From contig JAJSAM010000050.1 of NCBI GenBank assembly GCA_024274785.1, forward strand, positions 1-64,000: a DNA stretch of 64,000 bases, read 5' to 3'. The translations under genes were made by a program, and so were the position numbers. Below the pieces are notes generated by a model. That model did not search any database and had not been told where the DNA came from. It saw nothing but the letters and a program-made list of their open reading frames with translations. Shown piece by piece: positions 53,517-58,369 of the stretch. Every line of letters starts with the position of its first letter. Positions within the stretch are counted from its first letter, which is position 1. The DNA comes from Planctomycetota bacterium. Lineage in GTDB: Bacteria; Planctomycetota; JAJSAM01.

Positions 53517-54323
53517 ATGCGCACCGGAGGCGCCTTGGAAACCCTGACGATCGACCGTGCCGCCGCCCTGCAGACGGACTTCATGGAGCGGGTGGCGAGC
53601 CGGATCGAAGCAGTGAGCGAGTTTCTGGATCCGATCACCGGCCGTACGTTTCGCGGCCATGCAGCGCGGGTGGAGGAGTTCCCCTTCGACTTTTCGTCGG
53701 AGTTCGAGCGGGTGCAACGAGCCACCGGGGTCTTCGACGAGGTGCTGCTCGAGCGGATCGGCCGGGGGGCCCGGGCGCTCTGGGAGATCCGGCCGGCGGG
53801 GATCCTCCGGTTCGGGACGCAGATGCTGGTCCTCGCCGCGGTGTTGCCGCCGTTTCGGGAATTGCTGCTCGGCCTGACGCCGTCGGAGCGCGATATCGAC
53901 GACCTGCCGGGTGTCCTTCCGGAACGCGTTGCGGAAGGCTCGACGCGGGTCGTGGCGCTCCTCAGCCCTTCGGGGTGGCGGTGCGGGGGCTCGGCGGATG
54001 CGGCGCTCGGGGCGGGCGGAGATGTGCTGGTGCGCTTCGAACCGGCGCCGGGAGGCGGCTATCGGCCGTTTCCATGCGACGGTAACTGGCCTCCCGCGTT
54101 CCTCGCTCTCGAAAGCGATGAGGAACTCGAGTCGCGCGTCACGGAACTGGTGGCGGTCCGGCGGGCCGACCTGGTCCTTCGGGGGCTCGCCGCGCGGCAG
54201 GTTTCCCGAGAGGCGGGAGTGCCGGTGGCGATCGTGCAAGCGGCGTTCGCCCGTGCGGCGGGCCGGGACGAGTTCTTGCGTGCTGTTGAAACTGGCGGAG
54301 ACCTCGTGCTGAGGAGGAGCTGA
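53517..54323 (+). CDS. Conserved-context protein of unknown function, directly upstream of the ESCRT-like genes
   Basis: A 268-residue soluble protein I do not recognise. The N-terminus is helical (RAAALQTDFMERVASRIEAV). A mixed middle (about 70-215) follows, with a Gly/Ala-rich beta-like segment. The C-terminus has an HTH-like stretch (LAARQVSREAGVPVAIVQAAF). No membrane helix or catalytic motif. It lies 23 bases after ubiA and 4 bases before the first ESCRT-like gene, so it is probably expressed with that system. The ATG at 53517 is used; a TTG at 53535 with GGAGG 4 bases upstream is an alternative. Confidence 0.7.
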   Translation: MRTGGALETLTIDRAAALQTDFMERVASRIEAVSEFLDPITGRTFRGHAARVEEFPFDFSSEFERVQRATGVFDEVLLERIGRGARALWEIRPAGILRFGTQMLVLAAVLPPFRELLLGLTPSERDIDDLPGVLPERVAEGSTRVVALLSPSGWRCGGSADAALGAGGDVLVRFEPAPGGGYRPFPCDGNWPPAFLALESDEELESRVTELVAVRRADLVLRGLAARQVSREAGVPVAIVQAAFARAAGRDEFLRAVETGGDLVLRRS

Positions 54324-54327
54324 GCCG

Positions 54328-54960
54328 GTGTCCATTCTGGAAAAGATCAAGAGGCTGTTCGGCGGTGCGGACATTCCCGGCGATGTGGCGGAGATCTACC
54401 GCCTCTCGAAGAGCGAGGCGGAGGCGCTGGATCGCCTGGAGTCGGAGCGGGGCCGATCCGACCGGCATCGCGAAGTGCTGATCGGCGACATCCGGGCGCT
54501 CACCGAGGAAGAGGAGCGAGAGGTGGAGTCCGGGCGCGATGAGGAGTCGCCGATCCGGAGGCGCATCATCGCCAGGAAGGTGGCGGAGATTCGAGGCCGG
54601 ATCGGCCAGTTGATGAACCGCGTGGATCTGCTCACTCGCCGTGTGGCCTTGTTCGATCAGCAGGCCTCCCTGCTCCGGGATCGGGCGGTGCTCGATGCGC
54701 CGTTGCCCGAACGCGAGGAGATCGAGCAGGCCGCCGAAGACGCCCTGGTGGCCCGGCGCGAGTTCGAGGAGCGCGCGGAACTCGCCGACCTCTACCGGGA
54801 TGTCAGTCGGATCGAAGGAAGCACCAGGGGTGAGCAGGATCTGCTTCGGGAAATCGAAGGTGGCGGCGAAGAGGAGCTCTCCTTCGACGACATGCTGCGG
54901 GAGGAAGAGAGCCGGGTGAAACCTGGAAACGGCCGTGAAGGCCTTACCGAAGGGGCGTGA
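54328..54960 (+). CDS. Small charged helical protein, candidate divergent ESCRT-III-like subunit A
   Basis: A 210-residue all-helical protein without membrane segment. It opens with a short amphipathic stretch (MSILEKIKRLFG), followed by a long charged helical hairpin (about 20-130) and an acidic C-terminal tail (EGGGEEELSFDDMLREEE). The segment SPIRRRIIARK (74-84) recurs as SPVRRRIMARK in the next protein, which shows that the two are paralogous. The overall plan, basic core then acidic tail, fits ESCRT-III proteins, and the gene belongs to a tight cluster with an Snf7-like protein and a Vps4-like ATPase. Assignment is inference; a plain coiled-coil protein is the alternative. GTG start. Confidence 0.7.
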   Translation: MSILEKIKRLFGGADIPGDVAEIYRLSKSEAEALDRLESERGRSDRHREVLIGDIRALTEEEEREVESGRDEESPIRRRIIARKVAEIRGRIGQLMNRVDLLTRRVALFDQQASLLRDRAVLDAPLPEREEIEQAAEDALVARREFEERAELADLYRDVSRIEGSTRGEQDLLREIEGGGEEELSFDDMLREEESRVKPGNGREGLTEGA

Positions 54961-54961
54961 C

Positions 54962-55573
54962 ATGGGCATCTTCGACTGGTTCAAGCGCGATCGAAAGGTC
55001 ACGGACTACACCCCGGAGGAAGTGAAACGGGAGGAGGGGCGGCTGCATATTCGTGAAACGCAGATGATCGCACGCCTCGAGAAGAACGAGGTGGAGCGGG
55101 AAGCGATCTTCCGTCGGGGCTTCGATGTGAAGTCTCCGGTTCGGCGGCGCATCATGGCGAGGAAGTTCGAGGAGAAGGAGCAGGAACTCCGGCGGATCGA
55201 GCGCGACCTGTCCCGGCACTTGAAGGAGACCATGGCCGTAGCTGGGATTCGCTACCGTCTGGAACGTCGTGCGGCGGGTGACAGCTCTCTTCTCCGGAAG
55301 ATGGGTGGCGCCGAGATCGAGCGTCTGGCGGATCTCTGTGCGGACGACGAAATCGACGAGGAGATGTTCACCGAGAAGCTGACGGACATCCTCGGTGTGC
55401 TGGCCGAACCGGAAGGCGACCCTCTCTCGGGCATGGGGACGGGAGCGCGCTCGGTGCTCGACGTCTGGGAGCGCATGGACGAGGGAGTGATCGACTCCGT
55501 CGAGGAAGGCTTCAGCGAAGCGCAGGAGCGGATGCAGGATGGACCGGCGGAAGAAGATTCGCCACCGGCGTGA
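54962..55573 (+). CDS. Small charged helical protein, candidate divergent ESCRT-III-like subunit B
   Basis: A 203-residue all-helical protein. The N-terminus MGIFDWFKRDRK matches the short hydrophobic-then-basic start of ESCRT-III subunits. The helical hairpin covers about 15-100, with SPVRRRIMARKFEEKEQELR (58-77) aligning to the hairpin turn and second helix of CHMP2-type proteins as I recall them. The second half is acidic (DLCADDEIDEEMFTEKLTDI, then EEGFSEAQERM near the end). It begins one base after the previous stop. A clear MIM motif was not found. Paralogue of the preceding gene. Confidence 0.72.
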   Translation: MGIFDWFKRDRKVTDYTPEEVKREEGRLHIRETQMIARLEKNEVEREAIFRRGFDVKSPVRRRIMARKFEEKEQELRRIERDLSRHLKETMAVAGIRYRLERRAAGDSSLLRKMGGAEIERLADLCADDEIDEEMFTEKLTDILGVLAEPEGDPLSGMGTGARSVLDVWERMDEGVIDSVEEGFSEAQERMQDGPAEEDSPPA

Positions 55574-55583
55574 AAGGAGCGGT

Positions 55584-56189
55584 ATGGGCCTCTTCAAATC
55601 GAAGGAAGAGAAGCGGATCGAATGGACCATCGAGGTCCGCAAGGGCCTGGCTCGCATCAAACGCCAGATCAAGAGCCTCGAGAAGAATGAGCGGGGCTAC
55701 ATCGAGAAAGCCAAGCTGGCGAAGGGCATGGGTGCGGACGATCAGTTCGACTTCCTGAAGAAGACGCTGAAGAAGACCGCGGTACAGCGGAGGATGCTCG
55801 AGCGCCAGCTCCTGAACCTCTCGACCGCAGCGCAGATCAAGGACCAGGTGGAAGCCAACGCCTCGTTCGCCAGGAGTATGAATGCGGTGTCGAAGGCGAT
55901 CAGCCAGCAGTTCGGTTCCGTGAACCTGACGAAGACCCAGGCCCAGTTCGAGAAGGCCATGGCCCAGGCCGAGAATATGGAGGAGCGGATCACCCTCTTC
56001 ATGGACATGTCGGCGGAATCGATGCTCGGGTACGAAGGCGACACGGACGAACTGGTTTCGGACAGCGAGATCGATCGGATGCTCACCGATGAGGCGGCGG
56101 GAGAGGAGAGCGCGGCGCAGGATGCGGAGATCGCCGAAGGTCTGGCCGCGGTGCGGGACGAGCTCGAGAAGAACGGGCAGAAGAAGTAG
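55584..56189 (+). CDS. ESCRT-III-like (Snf7/Vps24-type) protein
   Basis: A 201-residue protein with the layout of eukaryotic/archaeal ESCRT-III, whose polymers remodel membranes. It starts MGLFKSKEEKR, like CHMP3/Vps24 (MGLFGKTQEK). It has a basic hairpin (about 12-95), a hinge helix (ARSMNAVSKAI, 96-106), a helix matching the Vps2/Vps24 QFEKAMAQAENMEERITLF region (121-139), an acidic stretch with EIDRML (162-167, compare EIDRIL in CHMP3), and a terminal helix DAEIAEGLAAVR (180-191) with the D-xx-L-xx-R-L-xx-L-K spacing of an MIT-interacting motif. The next gene is a Vps4-like ATPase. It resembles these more than PspA/Vipp1. Comparison is from memory of family sequences. Confidence 0.82.
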   Translation: MGLFKSKEEKRIEWTIEVRKGLARIKRQIKSLEKNERGYIEKAKLAKGMGADDQFDFLKKTLKKTAVQRRMLERQLLNLSTAAQIKDQVEANASFARSMNAVSKAISQQFGSVNLTKTQAQFEKAMAQAENMEERITLFMDMSAESMLGYEGDTDELVSDSEIDRMLTDEAAGEESAAQDAEIAEGLAAVRDELEKNGQKK

Positions 56190-56198
56190 GGCGGCCCC

Positions 56199-57290
56199 GT
56201 GAGCGCGCTCGACTTTGAACTCAGGAACTTCAGAAGGCTCAAGCAACGCGGACTGGCGGCACTCCGGACCGGGCGGAAGGGCGCGGCGCGCATGACGCTG
56301 CTCCGCGCCGCGGAGTGCCTCTACCGGATTGCGGCGAAGTCGCGGGAACCGTTCAAGGGGCAACGATGCCGGAGTGCCGGTGAACTGCTGAGCCTGGCCC
56401 GCAGCATCGGTGAAGGGCCCCTGGCGCAAGCGGTCGAAGGCGAGGAGGGCGGCGCGTCGGCCTTCGAGATGGTGGCGCGCCCCGACGTGGACTTCGACTC
56501 CGTGGCCGGTCTGGACGAAGTGAAGGAGGAGATCCGGCTGCGGATGGTGTATCCGTTCACGCATCCGGAGATCGCCAGGCGCTACGGATTGCGCGGCGGG
56601 GGCGGTGTCCTCTTCTACGGCCCGCCGGGGAACGGCAAGACGCTGCTGGCCCGCGCGGTGGCCGGGGAGATCGAGGCTGCTTTCTTCACGGTACGGCCAT
56701 CGGACATCATGAGCAAGTGGGTGGGGGAGGCGGAGAAGAACGTCTCGGCCCTGTTCGCGGAAGCCCGCGGGCGTGACCGGGCGGTCATCTTCATCGACGA
56801 GATCGAGGCCCTGGCGCCGGTCCGGACCGGTGAAGCCTCCTCGGTGATGACGCGCGTCGTGCCGCAACTGCTCGCGGAACTGGAGGGGGTCTCCGGGCGT
56901 GGTCCCGGGGCGCTCCTGTTCATCGGGGCCACGAATGCTCCCTGGGATCTCGATCCGGCGATTCTTCGACCGGGGCGGTTCGATGTGAAAGTGTATGTGG
57001 GGCTGCCGGATCGGGAGGCGCGCGCGGCGATCCTCAGCCTCGAGCTTTCCGGGCGGCCCATCGAAGTCGGTTTCGATTTCGACGCCGTGGCGGGCGCCCT
57101 GTCGGGCTATTCGGGTGCCGACCTGCGCAGACTCGTGGAGAAGACGGTGGGAGATACCTTCCTTGCCGAGATCCGGGGCGGTGGCGCCGGGAGGGTCTCC
57201 GAGGACGATGTGCTGTCCGCCGCGTCGGAGGTACGCCCTTCGGTGGGCGCGGAGGGGCGCTTGAGATACCGGGAGTGGGCACAACGTTGA
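56199..57290 (+). CDS. Vps4-like AAA ATPase with candidate N-terminal MIT domain
   Basis: A 363-residue cytoplasmic ATPase with a single AAA module. The first 75 residues form a three-helix segment compatible with an MIT domain. Motifs: VDFDSVAGLDEVKEEI (97-112), Walker A GPPGNGKT (141-148), pore loop MSKWVGEAEKNV (171-182) with the Lys-Trp typical of Vps4/katanin, Walker B FIDE (198-201), sensor I GATN (243-246) and arginines in RPGRFD (257-262). The C-terminal helix [15 protein letters not shown] (346-360) matches the signature of the Vps4/spastin/katanin clade. Vps4 disassembles ESCRT-III polymers, and three candidate substrates precede it. RPGRFD is more Cdc48-like, so the type is not pure. 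GTG start. Confidence 0.85.
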   Translation: MSALDFELRNFRRLKQRGLAALRTGRKGAARMTLLRAAECLYRIAAKSREPFKGQRCRSAGELLSLARSIGEGPLAQAVEGEEGGASAFEMVARPDVDFDSVAGLDEVKEEIRLRMVYPFTHPEIARRYGLRGGGGVLFYGPPGNGKTLLARAVAGEIEAAFFTVRPSDIMSKWVGEAEKNVSALFAEARGRDRAVIFIDEIEALAPVRTGEASSVMTRVVPQLLAELEGVSGRGPGALLFIGATNAPWDLDPAILRPGRFDVKVYVGLPDREARAAILSLELSGRPIEVGFDFDAVAGALSGYSGADLRRLVEKTVGDTFLAEIRGGGAGRVSEDDVLSAASEVRPSVGAEGRLRYREWAQR

Positions 57291-58369
57291 AAGCTGTCGA
57301 AGCCATAGCGAGACTGCGCGGCGGTGCGGTGCCGGTGCTGACGGTCTTCCACGGCGAAGAGCGCTGGTTCGCCGCGAAGGCGGTTGCGGTCGTCAGGGAG
57401 AAGTTTCTCGAGGGTGCCGAGGACCCCGCCGAGATCGTCGATGGTCCCCGGTCCGCAACGGACTCCGAGGGCGTGCCGCTCGCCAGAGCGCTGGAGGAGG
57501 CTCGCACGGTGCCGATGTTCGCCGGCCGGCGCGTGGTCTTCTACCGGGCGCACCAGCCGGAGAAGAAAGAGCCGGGGCTGTTGTCCGGTTTTGCCGCGTC
57601 GGAGTCGAGCTTCGTGCGGATGGTGTACAGTGCCCCGTCCCTCGGCAAGGCCGCGGAGAACGCCCTTACGAAAGCCGGTGCGGTGGTGGGCCATGCCCGG
57701 AAGCTGTTCGACAAGCCGTATCCCGGCCAGCCGCCTTTCAATACGCCCCTCAACAAGTGGTTCTGCGAACGGGTGAGGGAGCAGGGGCGACATATCGACC
57801 TGCGGACCGCACACCTTCTTACCGAACAGATCGGCAACGACCTGATGGCGCTCGAGTCACACCTCGAGCGGATCCTCATCACCGTCGGGTCGAAACCTGA
57901 ACTCTCCGAGGACGACGTGCGGAATGCGTTTGCCGGCGGGAGGGATTACGACGGTTTCGCTTTCGGGGAAGCGGTGTATGAGCGGGACGCGCGGGCCGCG
58001 TTTCGCGTCTGTCGCAGTGCCTTCACGGAGGGCCTGACGGACCGTAAGGGACGGCGCACCACGGTGGAGAGCGCCGTGGCCGCCCGGCTGCTCTGGTCCA
58101 TTCGCTTTCGCCTGACGGATGTCTACGCCGCCCGCACTCTCCTCGACCGCGGCGCGAGCCCGGATGAGGCCGCGAAAGGGATGACGACGGGAAGCCCCAT
58201 CGCGCGCCTAAGGGCGGTGGGCCTGGCGTCGGCGTTTCGCCGCGAGGCGCTGCTCGGGCATTTCGCCTTGCTCGAGAAGGCCGAGTCCGATCTGCACCAG
58301 AGCATCCCGGCGGCGACGGTGATCGAGGGCCTCATCCCGCGGCTGATCGGAGTGGATGCGCATGGGTAG
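57275..58369 (+). CDS. holA: DNA polymerase III subunit delta
   Basis: Clamp-loader subunit of 364 residues that opens the sliding clamp. It has the HolA opening [44 protein letters not shown] and the C-terminal collar end [21 protein letters not shown]. Sequence conservation is low across this family, as usual. The start is GTG 57275 or TTG 57287; both overlap the ATPase gene end, so the genes are coupled. The stop overlaps the mutL start. Confidence 0.88.

Follow-up and report, generated by a model that had tools for sequence, protein, structure and literature searches.

The subject of this work is a run of consecutive plus-strand genes in a 64,000-nucleotide stretch of a Planctomycetota genome (assembly GCA_024274785.1, contig JAJSAM010000050.1, positions 1 to 64,000; hereafter, the window), which, as far as its sequence tells, is probably a bacterial ESCRT-III/Vps4-type membrane-remodelling cassette of the Planctomycetota. 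A first-pass annotation had proposed a system of this kind for four genes at 54328-57290, numbered here 1 to 4, and its reading is supported in substance. By its sequence, gene 3 encodes a homologue of the Snf7 (ESCRT-III) family, and an AAA ATPase with an MIT-like N-terminal domain (N-domain) is encoded beside gene 3 across many planctomycete lineages. Published surveys describe the ESCRT-III/Vps4 machine of archaea and eukaryotes as absent from bacteria, so that a linked and widely conserved bacterial cassette of ESCRT-III and MIT-type AAA genes, if true, would revise where this machine arose.

The Snf7-like protein encoded by gene 3

When the protein was searched alone with hmmscan, it matched the Pfam family Snf7 (PF03357) with an expectation value (E) of 1.1e-4 over its residues 14-174, covering positions 2-157 of the 171 in the profile, and Snf7 was the sole Pfam family found for it at E 10. 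A search of the whole genome with the Snf7 profile gave a single match of 28.4 bits, above the cut-off of 27.3, and the same profile matched 23 of 24 orthologues of gene 3 from the phylum (best E 2.7e-6), which were the set used for the family profile. Compared with the sequences in the PDB, the family profile gave nine matches up to E 10, and the first seven were all ESCRT-III proteins: CHMP3 (four matches, best E 6.1e-5, with an alignment spanning positions 13-170 of the family profile), CHMP2A and Snf7 (two matches). They were followed by carbonic anhydrase (E 0.86) and FtsA (E 1.2). The likeness to Vps24/CHMP3 and CHMP2 that the first-pass annotation had proposed was in this way recovered by profile. 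The features of the gene are the following:

55584-56189, plus strand: gene 3, Snf7/ESCRT-III homologue of 201 amino acids (profile searches, model, Foldseek)
55602-55730, plus strand: helix 1, residues 7-49, equivalent to alpha-1 (AlphaFold model)
55737-55913, plus strand: long helix, residues 52-110, corresponding to ESCRT-III alpha-2/alpha-3 (AlphaFold model)
56067-56084, plus strand: EIDRML motif, residues 162-167 (aligned to EIDRIL of CHMP3)
56121-56153, plus strand: putative MIT-binding helix of MIM1-like type at the C-terminus, residues 180-190 (pattern)

The MGLF start, the EIDRML motif and the MIM1-like terminal helix that had been noticed earlier are all present in the sequence, and the net charge of the protein is +12 over residues 1-115 and -15 over the rest. 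The tails of the family were scored with a MIM1-like pattern. It was found in its loose form in 44 of 73 gene 3 family frames versus 11% of shuffles, and in its strict form in 10 of the 73 versus 0.6% of shuffles, these frames including second copies of the loci of some genomes. The tail of gene 3 in the window shows the loose form only, and the tails of the Phycisphaerae-type loci (described below) differ and mostly lack this pattern.

The AlphaFold model of gene 3, built with 24 rows, has a mean predicted local distance difference test score (pLDDT) of 72.8 and a predicted template modelling score of 0.51. Its helices (residues 7-49, 52-110, 115-149, 154-157 and 160-199) follow the order of ESCRT-III, with alpha-1, a long alpha-2/3, alpha-4 and a C-terminal helix. 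In a Foldseek search of the PDB, ranks 1-15 were occupied by structures of CdvB2, CHMP2A-CHMP3, IST1-CHMP1B and CdvB, the match to CHMP2A having a probability of 1.00 and template modelling (TM) scores of 0.50/0.68; BAR domains appeared from rank 16, and then ferritins and designed bundles.

Three of these measurements speak against the assignment. The protein alone reached 22.3 bits in hmmscan, under the Pfam gathering score of 27.3; the best Foldseek E was 0.083, with none at or below 0.001; and the CdvB2 matches had TM scores of only 0.21-0.26. The Snf7 match expected from the annotation therefore stands for the family and for the search of the whole genome and falls short for the single protein, and the model resembles ESCRT-III by rank and not by E. 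Modest E-values for the single protein and weak Foldseek scores of long helices are what an artefact of charged coiled-coil composition would have in its favour, an explanation that is largely refuted and that we regard as barely tenable. Nearly all of the divergent members match Snf7, gene 3 does so over almost the whole profile, and the charged families of the same loci used as controls do not: no match was found in 22 members of the gene 2 family or in 10 of the gene 1 family, and Snf7 was absent among the listed 25 of 29 Pfam families for 23 members of P2b, a relative of gene 2. The PDB search with the family profile, in which the first seven places went to ESCRT-III, speaks against this explanation as well.

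The Snf7 profile, at E 0.1, also gave sub-cut-off matches in 6 of 14 control genomes, Sulfolobus included, with none of the 14 above the cut-off; five of these six are not known as ESCRT organisms. Such matches could be taken in favour of gene 3 being a divergent PspA/Vipp1 protein and gene 4 a regulating AAA chaperone, both belonging to a variant envelope-stress system. PspA and Snf7 are described as one superfamily of membrane-remodelling helical polymers in PMC8281802, and PspA genes beside AAA+ ATPases have been reported in bacteria in PMC11237479. This explanation is nevertheless improbable, since the profiles bring gene 3 nearer to Snf7 than to PspA: no PspA/Vipp1 chain was found among its PDB matches up to E 10, and no PspA family among the listed 25 of 35 Pfam families for its 24 members. 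The genome of the window holds both proteins, with a separate PspA above the cut-off at C1:6708-7358, which is its only PF04012 match, and the MIM1-like tail of gene 3 together with the linked ATPase and its MIT-like domain fits the Snf7 branch.

The ATPases with MIT-like domains

Two types of AAA genes were found in these loci, AAA2, to which gene 4 of the window belongs, and AAA1, which is present in relatives. The features of gene 4 are:

56199-57290, plus strand: gene 4 (AAA2 type), MIT-like N-domain and AAA ATPase, GTG start
56205-56405, plus strand: three-helix MIT-like N-domain, residues 3-69 (model, profile searches)
56619-56642, plus strand: Walker A, GPPGNGKT (sequence)
56712-56732, plus strand: pore loop, SKWVGEA (sequence, 33-row alignment)
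56784-56801, plus strand: Walker B, VIFIDE (sequence; D200 and E201 identical in all 33 aligned rows)
57249-57284, plus strand: C-terminal helix (residues 351-362) that follows the small AAA subdomain (AlphaFold model)

Gene 4 matched the Pfam AAA family at E 1.5e-37, with both Walker motifs intact and a pore stretch SKWVGEAEKNV in which K173, W174, V175 and G176 are invariant in the 33-row alignment; at the same site, the CdvC chains in the PDB have SKWLGEAEKNV. Its model (pLDDT 88.6) begins with three helices (residues 3-23, 27-47 and 52-69; 10-residue blocks at pLDDT 84 and then 92-96), followed by a low-confidence linker at residues 74-87, the AAA core and the last helix at its end. Both the SKW pore loop and the C-terminal helix attributed to gene 4 at first sight were confirmed. 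No beta-domain insertion was seen in the model. The Vps4_C beta-domain is a feature of eukaryotic Vps4 that is not known from crenarchaeal CdvC, and it is not required for CdvC membership.

A profile of 27 N-domains of the gene 4 type had as its top PDB match chitin synthase 1 (2mpk, E 0.003), which we take to be an MIT domain, with a designed binder as the runner-up (E 0.0091). For the N-domain of AAA1, the four top matches were the MIT domains of VPS4/SKD1 (E 0.0037-0.0079), with an alignment covering positions 1-73 of 80 that runs end to end with the MIT domain of VPS4B, and the two N-domain families are related to each other (hhalign E 4.5e-6). Pfam MIT itself was matched by one of 20 AAA1 N-domains. 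Among the best 60 of the 258 matches of the complete AAA1 profile, VPS4B (2zam) scored 239.8 bits in one stretch from MIT through AAA, versus 180.6 and 210.8 bits for the AAA domains of p97 taken singly, p97 being the one two-domain match with single-domain scores (the others were AFG2, NVL and Rix7). RRFEKRIYIPLPE of VPS4B corresponds to SRFEKKILIPLPD of AAA1. The AAA1 of the relatives is probably a Vps4.

In a tree of 65 sequences, AAA1 grouped with CdvC, VPS4B and spastin (support 93/82), gene 4 and its relatives formed a clade of their own (100/99), and p97/Cdc48 and FtsH were split from AAA2, AAA1, CdvC, VPS4B and spastin (99/94). The equivalent split was also found in a tree of 29 sequences (93/86). 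The gene 4 type lies outside the group of AAA1, CdvC, VPS4B and spastin, and is adjacent to it if the root is set at FtsH.

Against a Vps4 identity there is a series of observations on both ATPases. Neither Pfam MIT nor Vps4_C matched gene 4 at E 10, Pfam MIT matched none of the 27 N-domains of its type, and TPR_2 was weakly matched by 5 of these 27 and by 8 of the 20 AAA1 N-domains. Among the NCBIfam models, CDC48 (211 bits) and two PAN models (201 and 188) scored above CdvC (185) for gene 4, the best E over 33 relatives being 2.1e-75 for CDC48 and 2.6e-72 for CdvC; the best 50 Foldseek rows listed for gene 4 were mostly p97/Cdc48, which was also the top match, plus single chains of PAN and NVL, and neither Vps4 nor CdvC occurred in these rows. 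In the tree of 29 sequences the support of the group formed by AAA1, CdvC, VPS4B and spastin drops to 75/31, and all three alternatives put to approximately unbiased tests on this tree survive (AAA2 joined to the Vps4 clade, p 0.372; AAA2 with Cdc48, p 0.211; AAA1 with AAA2, p 0.408); gene 4 could not be placed firmly among the AAA sequences. The genome of the window has no AAA1 by search with the AAA1 profile, whose best match there is gene 4, followed by four weaker ones, two of them read as FtsH.

These scores, the own clade of AAA2 and the RPGRFD that gene 4 keeps in place of the RRFE/RRFQ form of VPS4B and CdvC would fit a Cdc48/PAN-like unfoldase with an acquired three-helix adaptor, for which the products of genes 1-3 would be ordinary substrates or a soluble complex, with no membrane remodelling. 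We consider this unlikely, given the single AAA domain and the MIT-like N-domain of gene 4, the position of p97 and FtsH on the other side of the split in both trees, the fact that 46 of 57 loci pair such an AAA gene with a Snf7-like one, and the Vps4-like character of AAA1. Membership of gene 4 in Vps4 is likely, though not settled: its architecture, its pore loop and its linkage resemble those of Vps4, but its AAA domain scores better with Cdc48 and the trees do not fix its clade. Of what the first-pass annotation had claimed, the candidate MIT domain persists as a three-helix N-domain with a presumed MIT domain at the top of its PDB matches and without a Pfam MIT match. Of the checks it had proposed, the one for Vps4_C gave no match, and in the trees the ATPase is kept apart from FtsH and Cdc48 without joining Vps4 firmly.

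Conservation of the cassette and its partner genes

Homologues of genes 1-4 were found in the same order in a sister genome (L002), with 49, 58, 69 and 69% identity respectively, so the proposed four-gene unit is conserved. By profile, the gene 3 family was detected in 52 of the 288 Planctomycetota genomes that were sampled, with one copy in each and in 22 families as labelled by the tool, all matches having E of 4.1e-47 or lower; the search with the single protein detected it in 53 of 294. It was undetected in 236 of the 288, some of them incomplete, and the cassette is therefore not a general answer to planctomycete division. In named genomes, all titled as metagenome-assembled, 57 loci were found, 50 of them labelled Planctomycetota, five without phylum label, one labelled Pseudomonadota and one Sumerlaeota. 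Their neighbours were counted with profiles built from the loci, an AAA gene being scored when AAA1 or AAA2 was no more than 5 kb away from gene 3 and had its orientation.

The 46 loci with such a gene include AAA1 at 24 and AAA2 at 35, with both at 13. When the flanks were ample (at least 5 kb before and at least 3.5 kb after gene 3), the proportion was 31 of 32. The remaining 11 of the 57 loci, including one with ample flanks (L075), have no AAA gene nearby and count against the linkage. An ESCRT system, in the usage of PMC10936438, comprises both ESCRT-III and Vps4 genes, and these loci link the two provided that their AAA genes are of the Vps4 type. A gene 1 homologue was found at 44 of the 57 loci (at L041 only through a cross-match of the gene 2 frame), gene 2 at 30, and P5, a gene preceding gene 1, at 48, which identifies genes 1, 2 and P5 as conserved partners of the cassette. 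In the window they are:

~53517-54323, plus strand: P5, cassette protein of unknown fold (family A8; start inferred)
54328-54960, plus strand: gene 1 (P1), charged and probably helical protein with an acidic tail, GTG start (family A3)
54962-55573, plus strand: gene 2 (P2), charged and probably helical protein with a basic N-half and an acidic tail (family A2)

All five genes are packed on the plus strand, in a genome of 4.5 Mb in 83 contigs with a completeness of 90.4%. P5, which was outside the range annotated at first, ends 4 bases 5' of gene 1, and the gaps between genes 1, 2, 3 and 4 are of 1, 10 and 9 bases, in agreement with the four consecutive genes described before. Gene 2 has an ATG start at 54962, within a mechanical open reading frame (ORF) that starts at 54935. 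The 3' end of gene 4 overlaps the next mechanical ORF (57275-58369), which is HolA-like only by our own reading and for which no Pfam match was found; it separates gene 4 from a MutL gene, and genes of the UbiE and UbiA types flank the cassette on the other side.

The basic hairpins ascribed to the three small proteins were verified for genes 2 and 3 and not for gene 1, with net charges of +9 over residues 1-115 of gene 2 and -2 over residues 1-130 of gene 1, and the acidic tails for all three (-22 and -14 in genes 2 and 1). Genes 1 and 2 are related (A2-A3 hhalign E 2.8e-6), and so are gene 2 and P2b (family A9; A9-A2 hhalign E 6.2e-10). The ESCRT-III character suggested for genes 1 and 2 was not supported, which counts against our reading of the cassette: hhalign comparisons with the gene 3 family were not significant (E 0.012 for gene 2 and 0.3 for gene 1; P2b gave 0.0023), and, with no Snf7 match in the Pfam listings, we do not claim genes 1, 2 or P2b as further ESCRT-III paralogues. 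P5 has no convincing match in Pfam or in the PDB. A winged-helix (ESCRT-II-like) fold was considered by eye for its C-terminal 60 residues, but both databases were uninformative and this is not claimed either.

At 20 of the 57 loci (L062, L063, L066-L071, L073-L083 and L085), 14 of which are labelled as Phycisphaerae, for which we call them all Phycisphaerae-type, P5 and the gene 1 homologue form one open frame, so these two proteins probably act together. The gene 2 of relatives is present in one or two copies or is replaced in its slot by P2b, which occupies it at another 26 loci, 21 belonging to the named set of 57 and five unnamed. A gene 2 homologue was found in 17 of the 288 genomes, 11 of which also have gene 3. 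Four of the other six belong to the order of the window and have neither gene 3 nor the ATPases nearby (L096-L099), which suggests a possible independent role for gene 2. At L097 it lies between UbiA-like and HolA/MutL-like genes, by our own reading, a syntenic place, as if the remainder of the cassette had been lost or never gained. The fifth genome is G139, where the contig ends just past the gene 2 homologue, and the sixth is G252.

Other neighbours were also observed. At 19 of the 20 Phycisphaerae-type loci (L062, L063, L066-L071 and L073-L083) a frame for a Hanks-type protein kinase lies 3.6-5.5 kb upstream of gene 3 on the same strand, as in L069:5832-6872, the sole copy tested with Pfam (Pkinase, 126.6 bits, plus a double zinc ribbon). 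Kinase-like frames occur near the cassette at 34 loci, with varying position and strand outside these 19, and the upstream kinase may point to regulation. A lipopolysaccharide kinase (Kdo/WaaP) gene between AAA1 and gene 3, identified by Pfam in L101:7990-8829 and by BLAST in L102:7407-8159 and L105:8730-9539, is a hint of an envelope link, and at L106:3291-5294 a gene for a trypsin-like serine protease stands between AAA1 and the Snf7-like gene. Several recurrent-neighbour clusters that resembled shadow frames (opposite strand or odd composition) were not used, and an apparent AAA1-Snf7 fusion in L037 was discarded, as the joined frame crosses a run of N of the assembly. Records titled Hydrogenedentes (L041) and Sumerlaeota (L045) and an unlabelled one (L056) carry all or some of the cassette, which reflects either a true spread beyond the Planctomycetota or mislabelled metagenome-assembled genomes; L040, titled Proteobacteria, has match coordinates identical to those of G176, a genome of the phylum of the window.

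Proposed mechanism, known systems and host background

By analogy with ESCRT-III and Vps4, the gene 3 protein would use its MGLF N-terminus and its basic hairpin to polymerise on the inner membrane, on the cytoplasmic side, and its MIM1-like C-terminal helix would dock onto the MIT-like domain of a gene 4 hexamer. The hexamer would then pull the tail through its K-W pore loop, in such a way that the use of ATP would remodel or disassemble the polymer and the membrane would be bent or cut. The products of genes 1 and 2 probably co-assemble with the polymer, nucleate it or position it, with P5 presumably tied to gene 1 as the gene fusion of relatives suggests, and AAA1 and AAA2 may serve different steps where both are present.

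We know of no counterpart to P5, gene 1 or gene 2 in the archaeal Cdv system (CdvB, CdvC/Vps4). The latter shares with the cassette the pairing of a Snf7-family protein with an AAA ATPase whose N-domain is MIT-like, the SKW(L/V)GEAEKNV stretch, the lack of a beta-domain insertion in the model of gene 4 and a host without FtsZ match, whereas the present cassette is bacterial, has two AAA genes at some loci and carries RPGRFD in place of RRFQ in gene 4. To the eukaryotic ESCRT-III/VPS4 it is alike in the CHMP3 alignment, the MGLF start and MIM1-like tail of gene 3 and the complete alignment of the AAA1 N-domain with the MIT domain of VPS4B, and it differs by its low sequence similarity and by the gene 4 protein having no VPS4 beta-domain; eukaryotic counterparts of genes 1, 2 and P5 were searched through Pfam and the PDB.

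Bacterial Snf7 proteins, even beside an AAA+ ATPase, are already known and not new. PMC11237479 describes members of the Snf7 clade in a few bacteria, a Deltaproteobacterium and a Bacteroidete with Snf7 next to PspA, AAA+ ATPase operons that include PspA or transmembrane-bearing Snf7 homologues, and a VPS4-like ATPase that was transferred to bacteria with snf7 displaced by another gene; the P5-P1-P2-AAA1-Snf7-AAA2 cassette was not found in the available part of that text, where "planctomycet" has no occurrences. In PMC7615534, bacteria are said to be without a clear Vps4 homologue, and possible roles of ESCRT-III in bacterial abscission are raised, and the available parts of PMC7203096, PMC7618577, PMC13051332 and PMC3349469 contain nothing on such a bacterial set. 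No description of this cassette was found in the full-text literature, a coverage that leaves out most subscription journals, bioRxiv preprints and supplements; the literature searched contains no report of a linked cassette of Snf7 and an MIT-type ATPase that recurs in a single FtsZ-poor phylum.

The division of this phylum without FtsZ, covered in PMC6952346 and PMC9871819, is an open question for which the cassette supplies named candidate genes. A profile search found no FtsZ match in the genome of the window, and weak matches in 10 of the 288 genomes of the phylum, none above the curated cut-off, which was exceeded in 13 of 14 control genomes. It is conceivable, but in our judgement doubtful, that the cassette is an ancient ESCRT-III/Vps4 machine for constriction or scission in the division of FtsZ-less planctomycetes, in which one or two MIT-type ATPases would successively process a polymer composed of the gene 3 protein and those of genes 1 and 2. 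None of the 10 genomes with a weak FtsZ match is among the 52 with gene 3, but the chance probability of this is 0.13 and mutual exclusion of FtsZ and the cassette was rejected. As a separate observation on the genome of the window, some 1.2 kb separate its PspA gene from a distant AAA match (C1:4954-7358; L092, L116), for which the AAA1 profile gives E 3.9e-14.

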